From Nitrospinota bacterium (GTDB lineage Bacteria; Nitrospirota; Nitrospiria; Nitrospirales; UBA8639): a DNA stretch of 43,705 bases. The translations under genes were made by a program, and so were the position numbers. The first letter of the stretch is position 1; each line of letters starts with the position of its first letter. Below, piece after piece: positions 14,961 through 21,659 of this stretch. The notes beneath the pieces were generated by a model. That model saw only the letters and a list, made by a program, of their open reading frames with translations, was not told the DNA's origin and searched no databases. The DNA lies in assembly GCA_022572725.1 (NCBI GenBank), contig JACZVJ010000010.1:1-43705 (forward strand), written 5' to 3'.

Positions 14961-15767
14961 ATGGCGGTCAATTTATATCAAGTCACAATGGGCTTGTATT
15001 TCGTGGGGACTGTGGTGTTCCTCATCCATCTTTTGAGGCGTTCTGAAGCGTTGTCCAAAGTGGGCCTGGCGATTGCTGCCTTGGGGTTCCTGACTCATAC
15101 CGTGGCCCTTGTCCTTCAAATCATTGCAGTCGAGAAGGTCCCCTTGGTCAGTTTTCACAAGGCGATGTCGTTTTTTTCCTGGTCTTTGATGTTGGTCTTT
15201 CTGGGAGTCGTCCTTCGATATCAGCTTTCCGTCCTTGGCACCTTTATTCTTCCCCTTGCATTCCTTTCTCTCCTCTCCACAGCCGTCATTCCGGTGGAAA
15301 ACCCCGTGCTGCACCCCGTATTTGATGCAGTCTGGATTCACGTCACACTCAGTATGTTGGGCACCGTGGGGTTTGCGATAGCCTTCGTCGCAGGCCTTAT
15401 GTACGTGATGCAGGACCGGCTGCTGAAATCAAAACAGTTTAATGTGTTGTATTTTAAGCTTCCCCCTTTGGATTTTCTGGACACCTTGAATCAGCGATCG
15501 ATTCTTTTAGGTTTTCCTTTTCTGACGCTTGGGATTCTCACCGGGGCCATTTCCGCCCAAGTCACCTGGGGATCCTACTTAAGCTGGAACCCTGAGCAAA
15601 CGTGGGCACTCGTCACCTGGGTGTTCTATCTGATTGTGCTCATGGGGCGAATGACGGTGGGATGGCGTGCCAAAAAGGCTGCTTATCTGACCATTGTTGG
15701 CTTTGCCGGAGTCCTGCTCACGTTTTTGGGAGTTGTCCTTAAGGGGCATGGTCCCCCAGTAAGCTGA
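14961..15767 (+). CDS. HemX/CcsA-like cytochrome c assembly membrane protein
   Basis: The product has 268 residues with about eight membrane segments and the tryptophan-rich heme-handling motif WGSYLSWNPEQTWALVTW (about residues 200-217), which marks the CcmC/CcsA/HemX superfamily. Members bind heme for cytochrome c maturation, or in HemX influence glutamyl-tRNA reductase levels. Its stop codon overlaps the hemA start by one base, which favours the HemX-type role, but sequence does not separate the two. It is the first gene of the tetrapyrrole block. Confidence 0.9.
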   Translation: MAVNLYQVTMGLYFVGTVVFLIHLLRRSEALSKVGLAIAALGFLTHTVALVLQIIAVEKVPLVSFHKAMSFFSWSLMLVFLGVVLRYQLSVLGTFILPLAFLSLLSTAVIPVENPVLHPVFDAVWIHVTLSMLGTVGFAIAFVAGLMYVMQDRLLKSKQFNVLYFKLPPLDFLDTLNQRSILLGFPFLTLGILTGAISAQVTWGSYLSWNPEQTWALVTWVFYLIVLMGRMTVGWRAKKAAYLTIVGFAGVLLTFLGVVLKGHGPPVS

Positions 15768-17188
15768 TGAACACCGTTGCGGTTGGACTGAGTCACAAAA
15801 CGGCGCCGGTTGAGCTTCGCGAGTTGCTGGCTGTGCCGGAAAGTCGGATGGGCGAGGCCCTCCACCGGCTGGTGGCTTACCCTCATGTCAAGGAAGCGAT
15901 GCTCTTGCAGACCTGCAACCGTGTTGAGGTCTATGCAATTGTTGATCAGGTAGAAAGTGGTTTTTCGGCTATTCAAGAGTTTTTTGTGGAGACGCACCTT
16001 TCTCTTTCACCGGACTGGCTTATTCCTCACCTTTACTGGCATGAGGGGGACCGAGCGATCACCCACCTGTTTCGAGTGGCATCCAGTTTGGATTCCATGG
16101 TGGTGGGAGAACCCCAGATCCTTGGCCAGGTCAAAGACGCCTTTCGGATTGCCCTAACGCATAATACCAGCGGGGTTATTTTGAATAAGCTCGTCCAAAA
16201 GGCAATTTCGGTGGCCAAGCGGGTGCGGACGGAGAGCCGGATTGCCGAGAATGCCGTCTCGGTCAGTTATGCAGCGGTTGAGTTGGCGAAAAAGGTATTT
16301 TCCAATTTATCCGCGAAAACCGTGCTGCTTGTTGGTGCTGGTGAAATGGCTAAATTAGCAGCTCAGCATTTGATCAATCACGGTGTCCATCAGGTCCTCA
16401 TTACCACCCGGGACGTGAGTCGAGGGAGTGCTTTGGCTGAGCGATTCAACGGGGTTCCGATTCCCTTTGAGGGATTTCGCGGAGAGTTATGGAAGGCGGA
16501 TATTGTGTTGTGCTCCACGGGGGCTTCCCATTATTTAATCAGGAGCGAAGATGTGCAACGAGCGGTGCGTGAACGGATGAATCGCCCCATCTTTTTAATT
16601 GATGTGTCAGTTCCCCGCAATATCGACCCCACCGTCCGCGATGTCGATAACGCCTTTCTGTTTGATATTGATGACCTTGAAATGCATGTGGAACAGAATC
16701 GAGAAGAACGGCGGCAGGAGGCTGTCAAAGCCGAAGAGATTGTCAGGGAAGAGGTTGGAGTTTTCCTGAAATGGGTCCGGTCGCTGGAAGCGACTCCTAC
16801 CATCGTAGCCTTGCGGAGGCGGGCGGAGCAGATTAAGGAGGCTGAGCTGGAAAAAGTCTTAGGCCGTCTCGTGAATCTTTCGTCCCAGGAGCGTTCCGCC
16901 GTTGAGGGACTTGCTTCAGCCATTGTCAATAAGCTGTTGCATGGCTCACTCGTGGCTTTGAAGTCGGCCGCTCAATCCTCGAATGGGTCTATCTACATTG
17001 AAGCCGCCCGGCAGTTTTATCACTTGGAGGAATTGGAGGTGTCGAAAGAGGTGAGCCCCACTGACGGGACTCCTAGGGCCGTGGGCAAGGTAGAAGGCTT
17101 GGATGGGGGAAATGACTCACAAGGGGTTAGCGCTCCTACCGAATCGGGATCGGACAAACATCCACGTGAAATGGCGGAAGGCCAGTGA
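15767..17188 (+). CDS. hemA: Glutamyl-tRNA reductase
   Basis: The product has 473 residues. It has the N-terminal GLSHKTAPVELRE, the catalytic Cys50 in LQTCNRVEVYA, the segment VASSLDSMVVGEPQILGQVK, the NADPH-binding VLLVGAGEMAKLAAQHL, and the C-terminal dimerisation helices. It reduces glutamyl-tRNA(Glu) to glutamate-1-semialdehyde, the committed step of the C5 heme pathway. The last 45 or so residues form a polar, low-complexity extension not needed for the fold. The start overlaps the upstream stop (TGATG), and the end overlaps a GTG start of the next gene (GTGA). Confidence 0.97.
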   Translation: MNTVAVGLSHKTAPVELRELLAVPESRMGEALHRLVAYPHVKEAMLLQTCNRVEVYAIVDQVESGFSAIQEFFVETHLSLSPDWLIPHLYWHEGDRAITHLFRVASSLDSMVVGEPQILGQVKDAFRIALTHNTSGVILNKLVQKAISVAKRVRTESRIAENAVSVSYAAVELAKKVFSNLSAKTVLLVGAGEMAKLAAQHLINHGVHQVLITTRDVSRGSALAERFNGVPIPFEGFRGELWKADIVLCSTGASHYLIRSEDVQRAVRERMNRPIFLIDVSVPRNIDPTVRDVDNAFLFDIDDLEMHVEQNREERRQEAVKAEEIVREEVGVFLKWVRSLEATPTIVALRRRAEQIKEAELEKVLGRLVNLSSQERSAVEGLASAIVNKLLHGSLVALKSAAQSSNGSIYIEAARQFYHLEELEVSKEVSPTDGTPRAVGKVEGLDGGNDSQGVSAPTESGSDKHPREMAEGQ

Positions 17189-17494
17189 GTCAATCTACGG
17201 TATCCACCATGCAAAACGGCCCGAAGTTGTTGACCTGTCCTCGCTGTCGCGATACCTATTCTTGGGTATGGCCCTCTGCCCGACTGTCCGCACTGTGGGT
17301 ATGACTATAAGGAAAGTAAGGGTAGTGGGTGGAGCGGACTTGTGTATTTGCCGGTCATTTTGGGAATTCTCACCTTCTTCATGACTGCTTCCTATTATCC
17401 GGGAATCCTCGGTGGGGGAGAGGTCCCATCGATTGCTTCTCAGCCGGGCCAGGGGCAACCCTACGAAAAATTGCCCGCGTCTCGCACGCCCTAA
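17185..17494 (+). pseudogene. Zinc-ribbon membrane protein gene with a +1 frameshift
   Basis: From GTG 17185 (overlapping the hemA stop, GGAAGG upstream) the frame gives LLTCPRCRDTYSW and then stops at TGA 17302. The next frame, open from 17234, gives GYGPLPDCPHCGYDYKES, then a membrane segment (VYLPVILGILTFFM) and a polar tail ending at TAA 17492. Joined, the two parts make one zinc ribbon CPRC-x(n)-CPHC plus a membrane helix, about 102 residues. One surplus base near 17255-17270 (for example in the run TTCTTGGG) explains the break. The CPRC and CPHC codons lie at 17236-17247 and 17285-17296. The gene lies exactly between hemA and hemC. Confidence 0.7.
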
Positions 17495-17546
17495 TCTTCT
17501 CTGCCTTTGCCATCATGAGGTTGAACAAGCCGAGAGAGGTCTCCTT

Positions 17547-18494
17547 GTGGGGATAGAGAATGGTCCTCGCTCATCGCTGGTGATTGGAACGCGTGGAAGT
17601 CGTCTGGCCACTTTGCAGGCTGAATGGGTTCAATCCCGCCTGAGAGAGCTGGCTCCTCACTTGTCAATCCGACTTCAGCGGATTCGAACCAGCGGGGATA
17701 AGATTGTCGATGTGCCCTTGGCCAAAATTGGCGGGAAAGGTCTGTTTGTCAAGGAAATTGAAGAAGCGCTTCTTCGGGGCGAAATCGACCTGGCAGTTCA
17801 TAGCATGAAGGATGTTCCTTCGGCATTACCCCAGGGGCTGGTGATTGTGTGCATTCCTGAGCGAGAAGATCCTCGTGACGTGCTCCTCAGCCGTGATGGC
17901 CTGGTTTTGGAAAAACTCAGGCTAGGGGCGGAGGTGGGGACCAGTAGTCTCCGCCGTCAGGCGCAGCTCCTTTCCTATCGTTCGGATCTTTCCATCCACA
18001 TGCTGCGGGGGAATCTTGATACCAGGCTGCGAAAACTGCAGGATGGAGAGTATGATGCGATTGTTCTGGCCGCGGCTGGCCTGAGGCGATTAGGGTGGAA
18101 TGGTCAGGTGACCGAATATTTGTCCCCTCAAGTCAGTCTGCCAGCGATTGGTCAGGGCGCCCTGGCTCTTGAAGGCCGGCAGGATGATTCCTTTGTCCAG
18201 GAATTGATTGGCCCCCTGGATCATCCCCACACTAGGGTGGCGGTAACGGCTGAACGAGCCTTTCTCGCACGGCTGGAGGGGGGGTGTCAGGTCCCTATTG
18301 GTGGGTATGCGGTCGTTCACGATCACACCCTGAGCTTAGACGGTTTAGTCGCCAGTGTGGACGGGAAACGGATGGTGCGTGATACCATCCGCGGTCCTGT
18401 ACAGGAAGCCCGTCAATTGGGACTGCAGTTGGCGGAGCGGCTGCTCGGAGCAGGGGGAGATTCCATTCTCAACGACATATACGGTCAAGCGTGA
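17547..18494 (+). CDS. hemC: Porphobilinogen deaminase (hydroxymethylbilane synthase)
   Basis: The product has 315 residues, the usual length. It has IGTRGSRLATLQA at the N-terminus, KIGGKGLFVKEIEEAL, HSMKDVPS, GTSSLRRQAQL, RGNLDTRL and the cofactor-attachment cysteine Cys247 in LEGGCQVPIG. It joins four porphobilinogen molecules into hydroxymethylbilane. The open frame extends 45 codons upstream, but those residues are unlike the family; GTG 17547 with GAGAGG about 8 bases before it fits. Its TGA overlaps the GTG start of the next gene. Confidence 0.95.
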   Translation: MGIENGPRSSLVIGTRGSRLATLQAEWVQSRLRELAPHLSIRLQRIRTSGDKIVDVPLAKIGGKGLFVKEIEEALLRGEIDLAVHSMKDVPSALPQGLVIVCIPEREDPRDVLLSRDGLVLEKLRLGAEVGTSSLRRQAQLLSYRSDLSIHMLRGNLDTRLRKLQDGEYDAIVLAAAGLRRLGWNGQVTEYLSPQVSLPAIGQGALALEGRQDDSFVQELIGPLDHPHTRVAVTAERAFLARLEGGCQVPIGGYAVVHDHTLSLDGLVASVDGKRMVRDTIRGPVQEARQLGLQLAERLLGAGGDSILNDIYGQA

Positions 18495-20035
18495 GCAAAG
18501 GTCCAGTGCGGGAAGGAAAGGTGTTTTTAGTTGGAGCGGGCCCTGGCGACCCTGGCCTGTTGACGCTTCGAGGCAAAGCCTGCCTTGAACAGGCCGATGT
18601 CGTTCTGTATGACAATTTGGCCAATCCTGTGTTGTTGGACTATGCGCCTCCTGAAGCCGAGCGTATTTATGTGGGCCGGTGCGGGCGAGGGGCCTATGTG
18701 CCGCAGGCGGAAATCAATCACCTCATCCTTGAAAAGGTTCGACAAGGAAAGCGAGTGGTTCGACTGAAGGGGGGGGATCCCTTTATCTTTGGACGAGGGG
18801 GGGAAGAAGCTGAAGTCGTGGCGGAACACGGCTTGGCTTTTGAGGTGGTGCCGGGTGTCACTTCCGCTATCGCGGTTCCGGCCTATGCAGGGATACCGGT
18901 GACTCATCGAACAATGGCATCCACCGTGGCCTTTGTCACGGGCCACGAGGATCCCGCTAAGGACGGGACCGTCCTTGAATGGCCCCGTTTAGCCTCAGCG
19001 GATGGGACGCTGGTTTTCTTGATGGGCCTGAAGAATCTCCCCACCATTGTCCATCGGCTCTTGGCTGAGGGCAAGCCGGAAGATACCCCCGTGGCCCTCA
19101 TTCGGTGGGGCAGTTACCCTCGCCAGCGCACGGTGGTCGGGACCTTGGCGGATATTGTGGAGCGGGGAGAAACAGAGCAAGTGGAACCCCCTACCGTGAT
19201 TGTCATTGGAAATGTCGTGCGGTTGCGGGAACGACTCAATTGGTTCGAGTCTCGGCCCTTGTTTGGGAAACGGATTCTTGTGACCAGAGCCCGCGACCAG
19301 GCTTCTGCTTTATCTGACCTTTTGGTGACGTATGGGGGTGAGCCGGTTGAGTGTCCTACTCTTGAAATCGTCCCACCTGCAAATTGGCAGGATTTGGATC
19401 ATGCCATTGATCATTTACACGAGTATCAATGGTTGGTTTTGACGAGTGTGAATGGAGTGCAAGCGTTCATGGTTCGACTTCAACGCAAGGGTCTGGACTT
19501 GCGCGCCCTCCATGGCTTGCGGGTATGTTGTATTGGACCAAGGACGGCAGGGGAAGTGGAGAAGTACGGGGTAAAACCAGACCTGGTCCCTTCAGAATTC
19601 CAGGCCGAAGGCCTTATTGAGGCGATGAAAATGGAAGGTGTGGCTGGTCAACGGGTTCTCATTCCTCGTGCGGCCCAAGCCCGGGAATTGTTGCCTGAGC
19701 AGTTGGCGGCCTTAGGAATGTCTGTTCACGTCGTCACGGCCTATCGATCAGTCGCACCTCAAGGGAAAGGCGAGAATATTAAAGAGTGGCTACGGCGTGG
19801 AGAGATTCATATCATTACTTTTGCCAGCTCCTCCACGGTTCGAAATTTTCGTCGTTTTTTTAAGAGCGGTGGGGAACTGAAGAAATTGACTCATGGGACT
19901 CTCATCGCCTGCATCGGGCCCATTACCGCTCAGACAGTCCAAGATATGGGCTTAACCGTGGATGTGGTTGCTTCAGAAAATACCATTCCCGCTCTAGTCG
20001 AAACCCTTGCCCAGTATATGCAACAATCTATATAG
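18491..20035 (+). CDS. cobA-hemD: Fused uroporphyrinogen-III C-methyltransferase / uroporphyrinogen-III synthase
   Basis: The product has 514 residues. Residues 1-250 or so are a SUMT-type methylase (VFLVGAGPGDPGLLT, RLKGGDPFIFGRGGEEAE, VVPGVTSAIAVPAYAGIPVTHR, LMGLKNL, PTVIVIGNVVRLR). Residues 255-514 are a uroporphyrinogen-III synthase domain (KRILVTRARDQASALSDLL, LVLTSVNGVQAF, CIGPRTAGEVEKYG, LIPRAAQARELLPEQL, ITFASSSTVRNF, IACIGPITAQT). The first domain methylates uroporphyrinogen III towards precorrin-2 and siroheme or heme d1; the second closes hydroxymethylbilane. The fusion is common in Nitrospirota, clostridia and others. The GTG start overlaps the hemC stop. Confidence 0.96.
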   Translation: MSKGPVREGKVFLVGAGPGDPGLLTLRGKACLEQADVVLYDNLANPVLLDYAPPEAERIYVGRCGRGAYVPQAEINHLILEKVRQGKRVVRLKGGDPFIFGRGGEEAEVVAEHGLAFEVVPGVTSAIAVPAYAGIPVTHRTMASTVAFVTGHEDPAKDGTVLEWPRLASADGTLVFLMGLKNLPTIVHRLLAEGKPEDTPVALIRWGSYPRQRTVVGTLADIVERGETEQVEPPTVIVIGNVVRLRERLNWFESRPLFGKRILVTRARDQASALSDLLVTYGGEPVECPTLEIVPPANWQDLDHAIDHLHEYQWLVLTSVNGVQAFMVRLQRKGLDLRALHGLRVCCIGPRTAGEVEKYGVKPDLVPSEFQAEGLIEAMKMEGVAGQRVLIPRAAQARELLPEQLAALGMSVHVVTAYRSVAPQGKGENIKEWLRRGEIHIITFASSSTVRNFRRFFKSGGELKKLTHGTLIACIGPITAQTVQDMGLTVDVVASENTIPALVETLAQYMQQSI

Positions 20036-20148: not shown

Positions 20149-20541
20149 ATGGTCCCGGTAAAGTCTTTTATGGTTCCCGCTGAGAAATTTGTGAAGGTGG
20201 ATCGTGATGTCAACGTTCGGACCGCTGCGGAGGCCATGCGTGAAAATGGGGTCGGCAGCGTGTTCGTGACCAGAGAAGGATCTATCATTGGAATCTTGAC
20301 CGATACGGATTTGGTCCGCCGGCTTGTGGCGGTGGGGTCTGACCCGAACCAAACCACGGTGGAACAAATCATGTCGGCTCCTATCCTGATGATTGAGGAG
20401 AACAAGACCCTTCTTGATGCGAACGACCTGATGGCCAGGGAACACATCCGACATCTGGGCATCTCCAAGGATGGGAAATTGGTAGGAATGATTTCCGTGC
20501 GAGACCTTGTGGTTTTTTTGACGAACCTTCCCAGGAAATAA
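20149..20541 (+). CDS. Stand-alone CBS-domain pair protein
   Basis: The product has 130 residues consisting of two CBS motifs (about 1-65 and 66-130) and nothing else. The characteristic strings AAEAMRENGVGSVFVT..G..IGILTDTDLVRRLV and LMAREHIRHLGISKDGKLVGMISVRDLV are clear. Such proteins bind adenine nucleotides and act as energy sensors or regulators of partner enzymes. It lies between cobA-hemD and hemB, so a link to tetrapyrrole synthesis is possible but unproven. GGAGG lies 8 bases before the ATG. Confidence 0.9.
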   Translation: MVPVKSFMVPAEKFVKVDRDVNVRTAAEAMRENGVGSVFVTREGSIIGILTDTDLVRRLVAVGSDPNQTTVEQIMSAPILMIEENKTLLDANDLMAREHIRHLGISKDGKLVGMISVRDLVVFLTNLPRK

Positions 20542-20675: not shown

Positions 20676-21659
20676 ATGGCATTCCCGCGTCATAGAATGC
20701 GGCGCCTGCGCCAAGAGGAGTCTCTCCGTCGAATGATGCGGGAAACGGAGCTTTCTCCTGCCGATCTCATCTATCCCCTGTTTGTCATGGAAGGGGAAGA
20801 TCGGAAGGAGCCTATCCTTTCCATGCCCGGGCAATTTCGATGGTCGATCGACCTCCTGGTGAAAGAGGCTGCTGAAGCTCATTTATTGGGAATCCCCGCG
20901 GTAATTTTGTTTGGAATTCCCGACCGTAAAGATGAACGGGGGACTCCCGCGTATGATCCTGATGGGGTTGTTCAGCGGGCTGTTCGAACCATCAAGGATC
21001 GAGTGCCGGACCTCCTCGTGATCACCGATGTCTGTATTGATGAATATACCACCCACGGTCATTGTGGGATTGTCAAGGACGGTCGCATTCACAACGATGA
21101 GACCCTTGACTGTCTTCGGCTGATGGCACGGACACATGCTCAGGCCGGGGCTAATATGGTTGCACCCTCCGATATGATGGACGGTCGCGTGGCGGCGATT
21201 CGGGATGAACTTGATCAAGCGGGCTTTTCCGACATCCCGATCATGGCCTATGCGGCGAAATACGCCTCCTCCCTCTACGCGCCCTTCCGAGAGGCGGTCG
21301 CCTCGAGTCCAGCCTTCGGCGATCGCCGATCCTATCAAATGGATCCGGCCAATGCCCGTGAAGCCTTACGGGAAATAGAATTGGATATTGAGGAGGGCGC
21401 CGACATCGTGATGGTCAAGCCCGCCTTGCCGTACTTGGATATCATTGCCCGATCACGGTCGCAGGTATCAATCCCGATCGCTGCGTATCAAGTGAGTGGT
21501 GAGTACAGCATGATTAAAGCCGCTGCACAACTCGGCTGGCTTGATGAGCCGAAGGTCATGATGGAAACCTTACTTTCCATCAAACGAGCAGGGGCTGATG
21601 TTGTTTTGACCTATTTTGCCAAGGAGGCCGCCAAGCTTTTAATTAACTCATACCCATGA
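20676..21659 (+). CDS. hemB: Delta-aminolevulinic acid dehydratase (porphobilinogen synthase)
   Basis: The product has 327 residues. It has the N-terminal [16 protein letters not shown], the catalytic lysines in [13 protein letters not shown] and [11 protein letters not shown], and the metal-site loop [14 protein letters not shown]. In that loop Cys120 and Cys130 are kept but the middle ligand is Asp122 in place of cysteine, a mixed site. The enzyme condenses two 5-aminolevulinate molecules to porphobilinogen. AGGAGG at 20669-20674 is only one base from the ATG at 20676, which is unusually close; the next in-frame ATG is 20697. The stop overlaps the ribF start (ATGA). Confidence 0.96.

Follow-up and report, generated by a model that had tools for sequence, protein, structure and literature searches.

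The hemAXCDBL operon of Bacillus and Staphylococcus encodes a membrane protein, HemX, together with HemA and HemC, and in heme-proficient S. aureus this protein keeps glutamyl-tRNA reductase low (PMC5801465). A membrane protein is likewise encoded with hemA and hemC at the locus described here, which lies in a window of 43,705 nucleotides, the whole stretch of DNA that was analyzed. Other described families share parts of its architecture. DUF983 (PF06170) also combines a small zinc-ribbon-like motif with a membrane segment after it, and the TIGR04104 (cxxc_20_cxxc) and FmdB-type zinc ribbon families are short CxxC...CxxC proteins too. A literature search found work on HemX and no paper on the zinc-ribbon gene.

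A zinc-ribbon membrane gene in two frames

The interval between hemA and hemC in the window carries a CPRC half of a zinc ribbon in one frame and a CPHC half with a membrane helix in the next (Table 1). A GTG at 17185-17187 overlaps the TGA stop of hemA (17186-17188), as the first-pass annotation had described, and opens a frame with MQNGPKLLTCPRCRDTYSW that runs to a stop near 17303; the second frame reads LGYGPLPDCPHCGYDYKESKGSGWSGLVYLPVILGILTFFMTASYY...EKLPASRTP up to a stop at 17494. The ATG at 17209 is the better-conserved start, since the proteins of relatives open with M-x(n)-GPKLFTCP. The Kyte-Doolittle maximum of the window copy is 1.89, at GLVYLPVILGILTFFMTAS. Across both frames, the two CxxC pairs, CGYDY, the helix and EKLP are all present, with the G of the EKLPG tail replaced by A. 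The second-frame piece on its own matches the profile of relatives with E = 7.0e-20, and this match, together with intact relatives at the same place in the operon, argues for a broken gene over chance. These relatives bear out the hidden zinc-ribbon membrane protein gene that had been proposed, and the two-frame gene is confirmed as a real observation. The window copy lacks the uninterrupted frame by which the family is recognized and, as assembled, is not a working member.

Table 1. Features of the heme locus in the window.
Feature	Position	Strand	Basis or remark
HemX-like Cytochrom_C_asm membrane protein gene	14961..15767	+	PF01578, E 5e-34
hemA, glutamyl-tRNA reductase	15767..17188	+	PF05201, PF01488, PF00745
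Broken gene, part 1, with GPKLLTCPRCRDTY	17185..17259	+	Possible starts: GTG 17185, ATG 17209
Frame break, net +1 base	17257..17263	+	Spacing 37 vs 36 nt; codon comparison
Broken gene, part 2: LGYGPLPDCPHCGYDY, membrane helix, EKLP tail, stop	17261..17494	+	Profile match, hydropathy
Predicted membrane helix (limits approximate)	17336..17401	+	Kyte-Doolittle; AF2 helix in an intact relative
hemC, porphobilinogen deaminase	17547..18494	+	PF01379, PF03900; start GTG 17547 assumed
cobA/hemD fusion	18491..20035	+	PF00590, PF02602

Codon comparison gives 37 nt between the CxxC pairs in the window vs 36 in relatives from f1, the window's own family within the order, and from f3. On the 5′ side of the break the window reads TGT CCT CGC TGT and CGC GAT ACC TAT, followed by one extra base; on the 3′ side it reads CTT GGG TAT GGC CCT CTG CCC GAC and TGT CCG CAC TGT. 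Relatives typically have Y-L-G-x-x-P-L-P-D here, which places the break between 17257 and 17263, with the net +1 bounded by TAT (17257-17259) and CTT (17261-17263). This falls inside the 17255-17270 stretch first indicated for the frameshift. A 5-nt deletion, inferred from f2 relatives (spacing 14), was dropped because nearer relatives have a spacing of 12. No decay is visible past the break: with its halves joined for comparison, the window copy keeps 20 of the 25 positions with 95% or higher conservation among other copies, as does the intact copy of G005, another f1 genome.

The surroundings were read for 44 of the 49 family copies, and the gene lies directly before hemC in all 44 and after hemA in 43, so that the proposed link to a heme operon proves strict. 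At loci with enough flank, the block runs HemX-like gene, hemA, zinc-ribbon gene, hemC, cobA/hemD, CBS-domain gene, hemB. In several genomes the zinc-ribbon gene takes its start inside the stop codon of hemA; annotation easily overlooks small genes with this kind of overlap. In the one copy that departs from this order, L047/L073 (G136; Nitrospirae B7D1T1), the gene precedes hemC and no hemA or hemX was found upstream, which points to either rearrangement or misassembly. The window also has the small CBS-domain gene between cobA/hemD and hemB (20149-20541), as in relatives. Its HemB (20676-21659) is a candidate for a mixed metal site, presumably retaining two cysteines out of the three in the zinc-type ALAD site, with an Asp between them.

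The family in relatives and its predicted protein

A reading frame between hemA and hemC was looked for in relatives and found: the family profile hits 49 of the 236 genomes surveyed from the order. Within the order the gene turned up in f2, part of f3, and two f1 genomes, namely that of the window and G005; most f1 members have no gene upstream of hemC. In f2 the gene is an intact 91-aa frame upstream of hemC, and in several genomes it overlaps hemA by ATGA. Across 296 genomes searched from the phylum, just two marginal matches fell outside the order. Scans for matches to PDB sequences and solved folds, and for plasmid copies of the gene, gave nothing above threshold, and an Rfam scan of window positions 16900-17800 was empty.

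Intact members have about 90-114 aa and consist of a zinc ribbon, a single membrane helix and a short EKLPG-containing tail. The ribbon follows the pattern CPxC-x12-CPxCG or CPxC-x14-CPxCG, with 12 residues between the CxxC pairs in f1 and f3 and 14 in f2. Both CxxC pairs are conserved, as had been anticipated: across 18 members the four Cys, G, D and EKLPG do not vary, and the full set of invariant residues includes CPxC, Y, CPxCG, D, G, R, L, S, Y and EKLPG. Between close intact pairs dN/dS is 0.00-0.15, which marks the intact gene as a genuine protein-coding gene under constraint; the overall median, 0.13, takes in distant pairs compared ungapped and serves as an indication only. The intact copies are thus under strong purifying selection. 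This small family is so far unnamed and restricted to the order; its general type, a zinc ribbon joined to a helix, is a familiar one. It adds a strongly selected gene family, for which no named family was found, to the heme operon of an order that, going by organism titles, includes Nitrospira-type bacteria. A very similar ribbon, CPKC...YPDCPRCG, begins a planctomycete ankyrin-repeat protein (L079, 2611-2706).

The AF2 model of an intact relative (mean pLDDT 67) features hairpins, with strands around the first CxxC pair, followed by a single helix spanning residues 44-74; the strands at the CxxC pairs are of moderate confidence. Zinc binding by the four cysteines is predicted. Two to four K/R residues adjoin the helix on the ribbon side vs none to two after it, and this charge bias suggests that the ribbon is cytoplasmic.

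Inactivation or assembly error

A sequencing error had been suggested as a possible cause of the break, with the gene otherwise intact. The copy is indeed well preserved apart from the break, which also fits an assembly error, but error alone is not favored. For the gene to be intact in the organism, the extra base would have to come from assembly or sequencing, and a single-base-type discrepancy is indeed all that separates the window copy from a full frame. Control hem genes in the assemblies of relatives also show frame disruption at a low rate, with 4-5 cases in 238 genes (212 kb), some of them in incomplete assemblies; apparently disrupted in their assemblies are hemC of L037 (G055) and L054 (G190) and cobA/hemD of L022 (G041). 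The assembly that includes the window has 3.17 Mb in 221 contigs and is 99% complete. Against an error, a survey of non-overlapping best matches, with about 519 kb sampled from this genome, gave 120 conserved matches (117.6 kb), none of which continued in a second frame. Internal stops occurred in four single matches and are taken to be overextended query ORFs.

The family also breaks more often per base than the neighboring hem genes. G075 and G174 each have a frameshifted copy whose break lies elsewhere than in the window, and in G428 (L209, about 2000-2300) the ribbon is missing and a remnant of helix and tail is recognizable. Four broken copies of 49, against 4 disruptions in 212 kb of hem genes, give P about 0.001, and the three that remain when the window is left out, having been picked for being broken, give P about 0.008; both are rough binomial values based on few events. 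On the HemA+HemC tree, presence or absence of the gene changes at least 6 times. Several clades are without the gene, and most genomes of the order live without it. With f1, f2 and f3 all carrying the gene, this pattern is most simply read as the result of repeated losses, which appear to recur within the order. The independently and differently broken copies, the clades without the gene and the frameshift-free 117.6 kb make real inactivation at least as likely as error. An error that hides an intact gene is therefore a possible but somewhat doubtful explanation, and the window copy has probably undergone a recent, real inactivation, which would have occurred in a lineage able to do without the gene. 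With intact, frameshifted, truncated and absent copies all at a single fixed position, the locus also documents in compact form how an operon loses a dispensable gene.

Programmed +1 frameshifting could in principle yield the full protein from the two frames, both halves being well conserved and the frames overlapping where a shift could happen. However, 45 of the 49 copies give an uninterrupted match in a single frame, and the four broken ones break at differing places. Conservation also sets the shift at TAT-T-CTT, which corresponds to no slippery site known to us; a shift at the later CCC would cost the conserved LG. Such recoding is highly improbable here.

Possible role and comparison with known families

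The position of the gene and its stop-start overlap suggest co-production with HemA. From gene position, a role in tetrapyrrole metabolism, as the first-pass annotation proposed, may be inferred, and the best guess is an auxiliary role related to HemA. On this proposal the zinc ribbon, anchored to the membrane on the cytoplasmic side and produced along with HemA, might hold or tune glutamyl-tRNA reductase at the membrane. Heme supply would then be adjusted through it, in an operon where a HemX-like protein is encoded as well. If glutamyl-tRNA reductase is controlled in this way, the protein would be an added regulator of heme supply in cytochrome-dependent organisms. The joint reading, in which the unnamed family is real, the window copy frameshifted and recently inactivated, and the role an auxiliary tuning of HemA, stands about even. 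More speculative, and rather unlikely, is that an order-specific single-span zinc ribbon couples metal status or membrane localization to the first committed tetrapyrrole step, and that lineages dropping the gene have rewired HemA control; the window genome, caught early in the loss, would count among them.

The protein might instead act with the HemX/CcsA-like protein, handling heme for the assembly of cytochrome c or of oxidase. A cytochrome c assembly-type membrane protein is indeed encoded at the head of the block, and the family weakly resembles DUF983, below the cut-off of that profile; DUF983 occurs in oxidase operons. However, the gene lies between hemA and hemC and adjoins neither hemX nor oxidase genes, and none of the 58 genomes of the order that were searched has a DUF983 protein. 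Such a role is unlikely, and HemA tuning remains the preferred proposal.

No named Pfam or NCBIfam family matches the intact copies above threshold. Among the matches listed, the closest approach is DUF983, whose profile gives a weak match in all 5 members scanned (best E 5e-4), covers the second CxxC and the helix only, and misses its cut-off (17.8 vs 22.6 bits in the first member); compared with DUF983, the zinc-ribbon family has one predicted helix. TIGR04104 and the FmdB-type family were rejected as far under their cut-offs (13.1 vs 45 bits and 10.1 vs 31.3). PF01578 is not among the 25 families listed as matches across all members, nor among the matches given for a single member, but the neighboring HemX-like gene does match it. 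HemX is of the multi-span Cytochrom_C_asm type, whereas the zinc-ribbon protein combines its ribbon with one helix only, and the same operon contains a HemX-like gene of its own. HemX is proposed as an analogue of the zinc-ribbon protein in role only.
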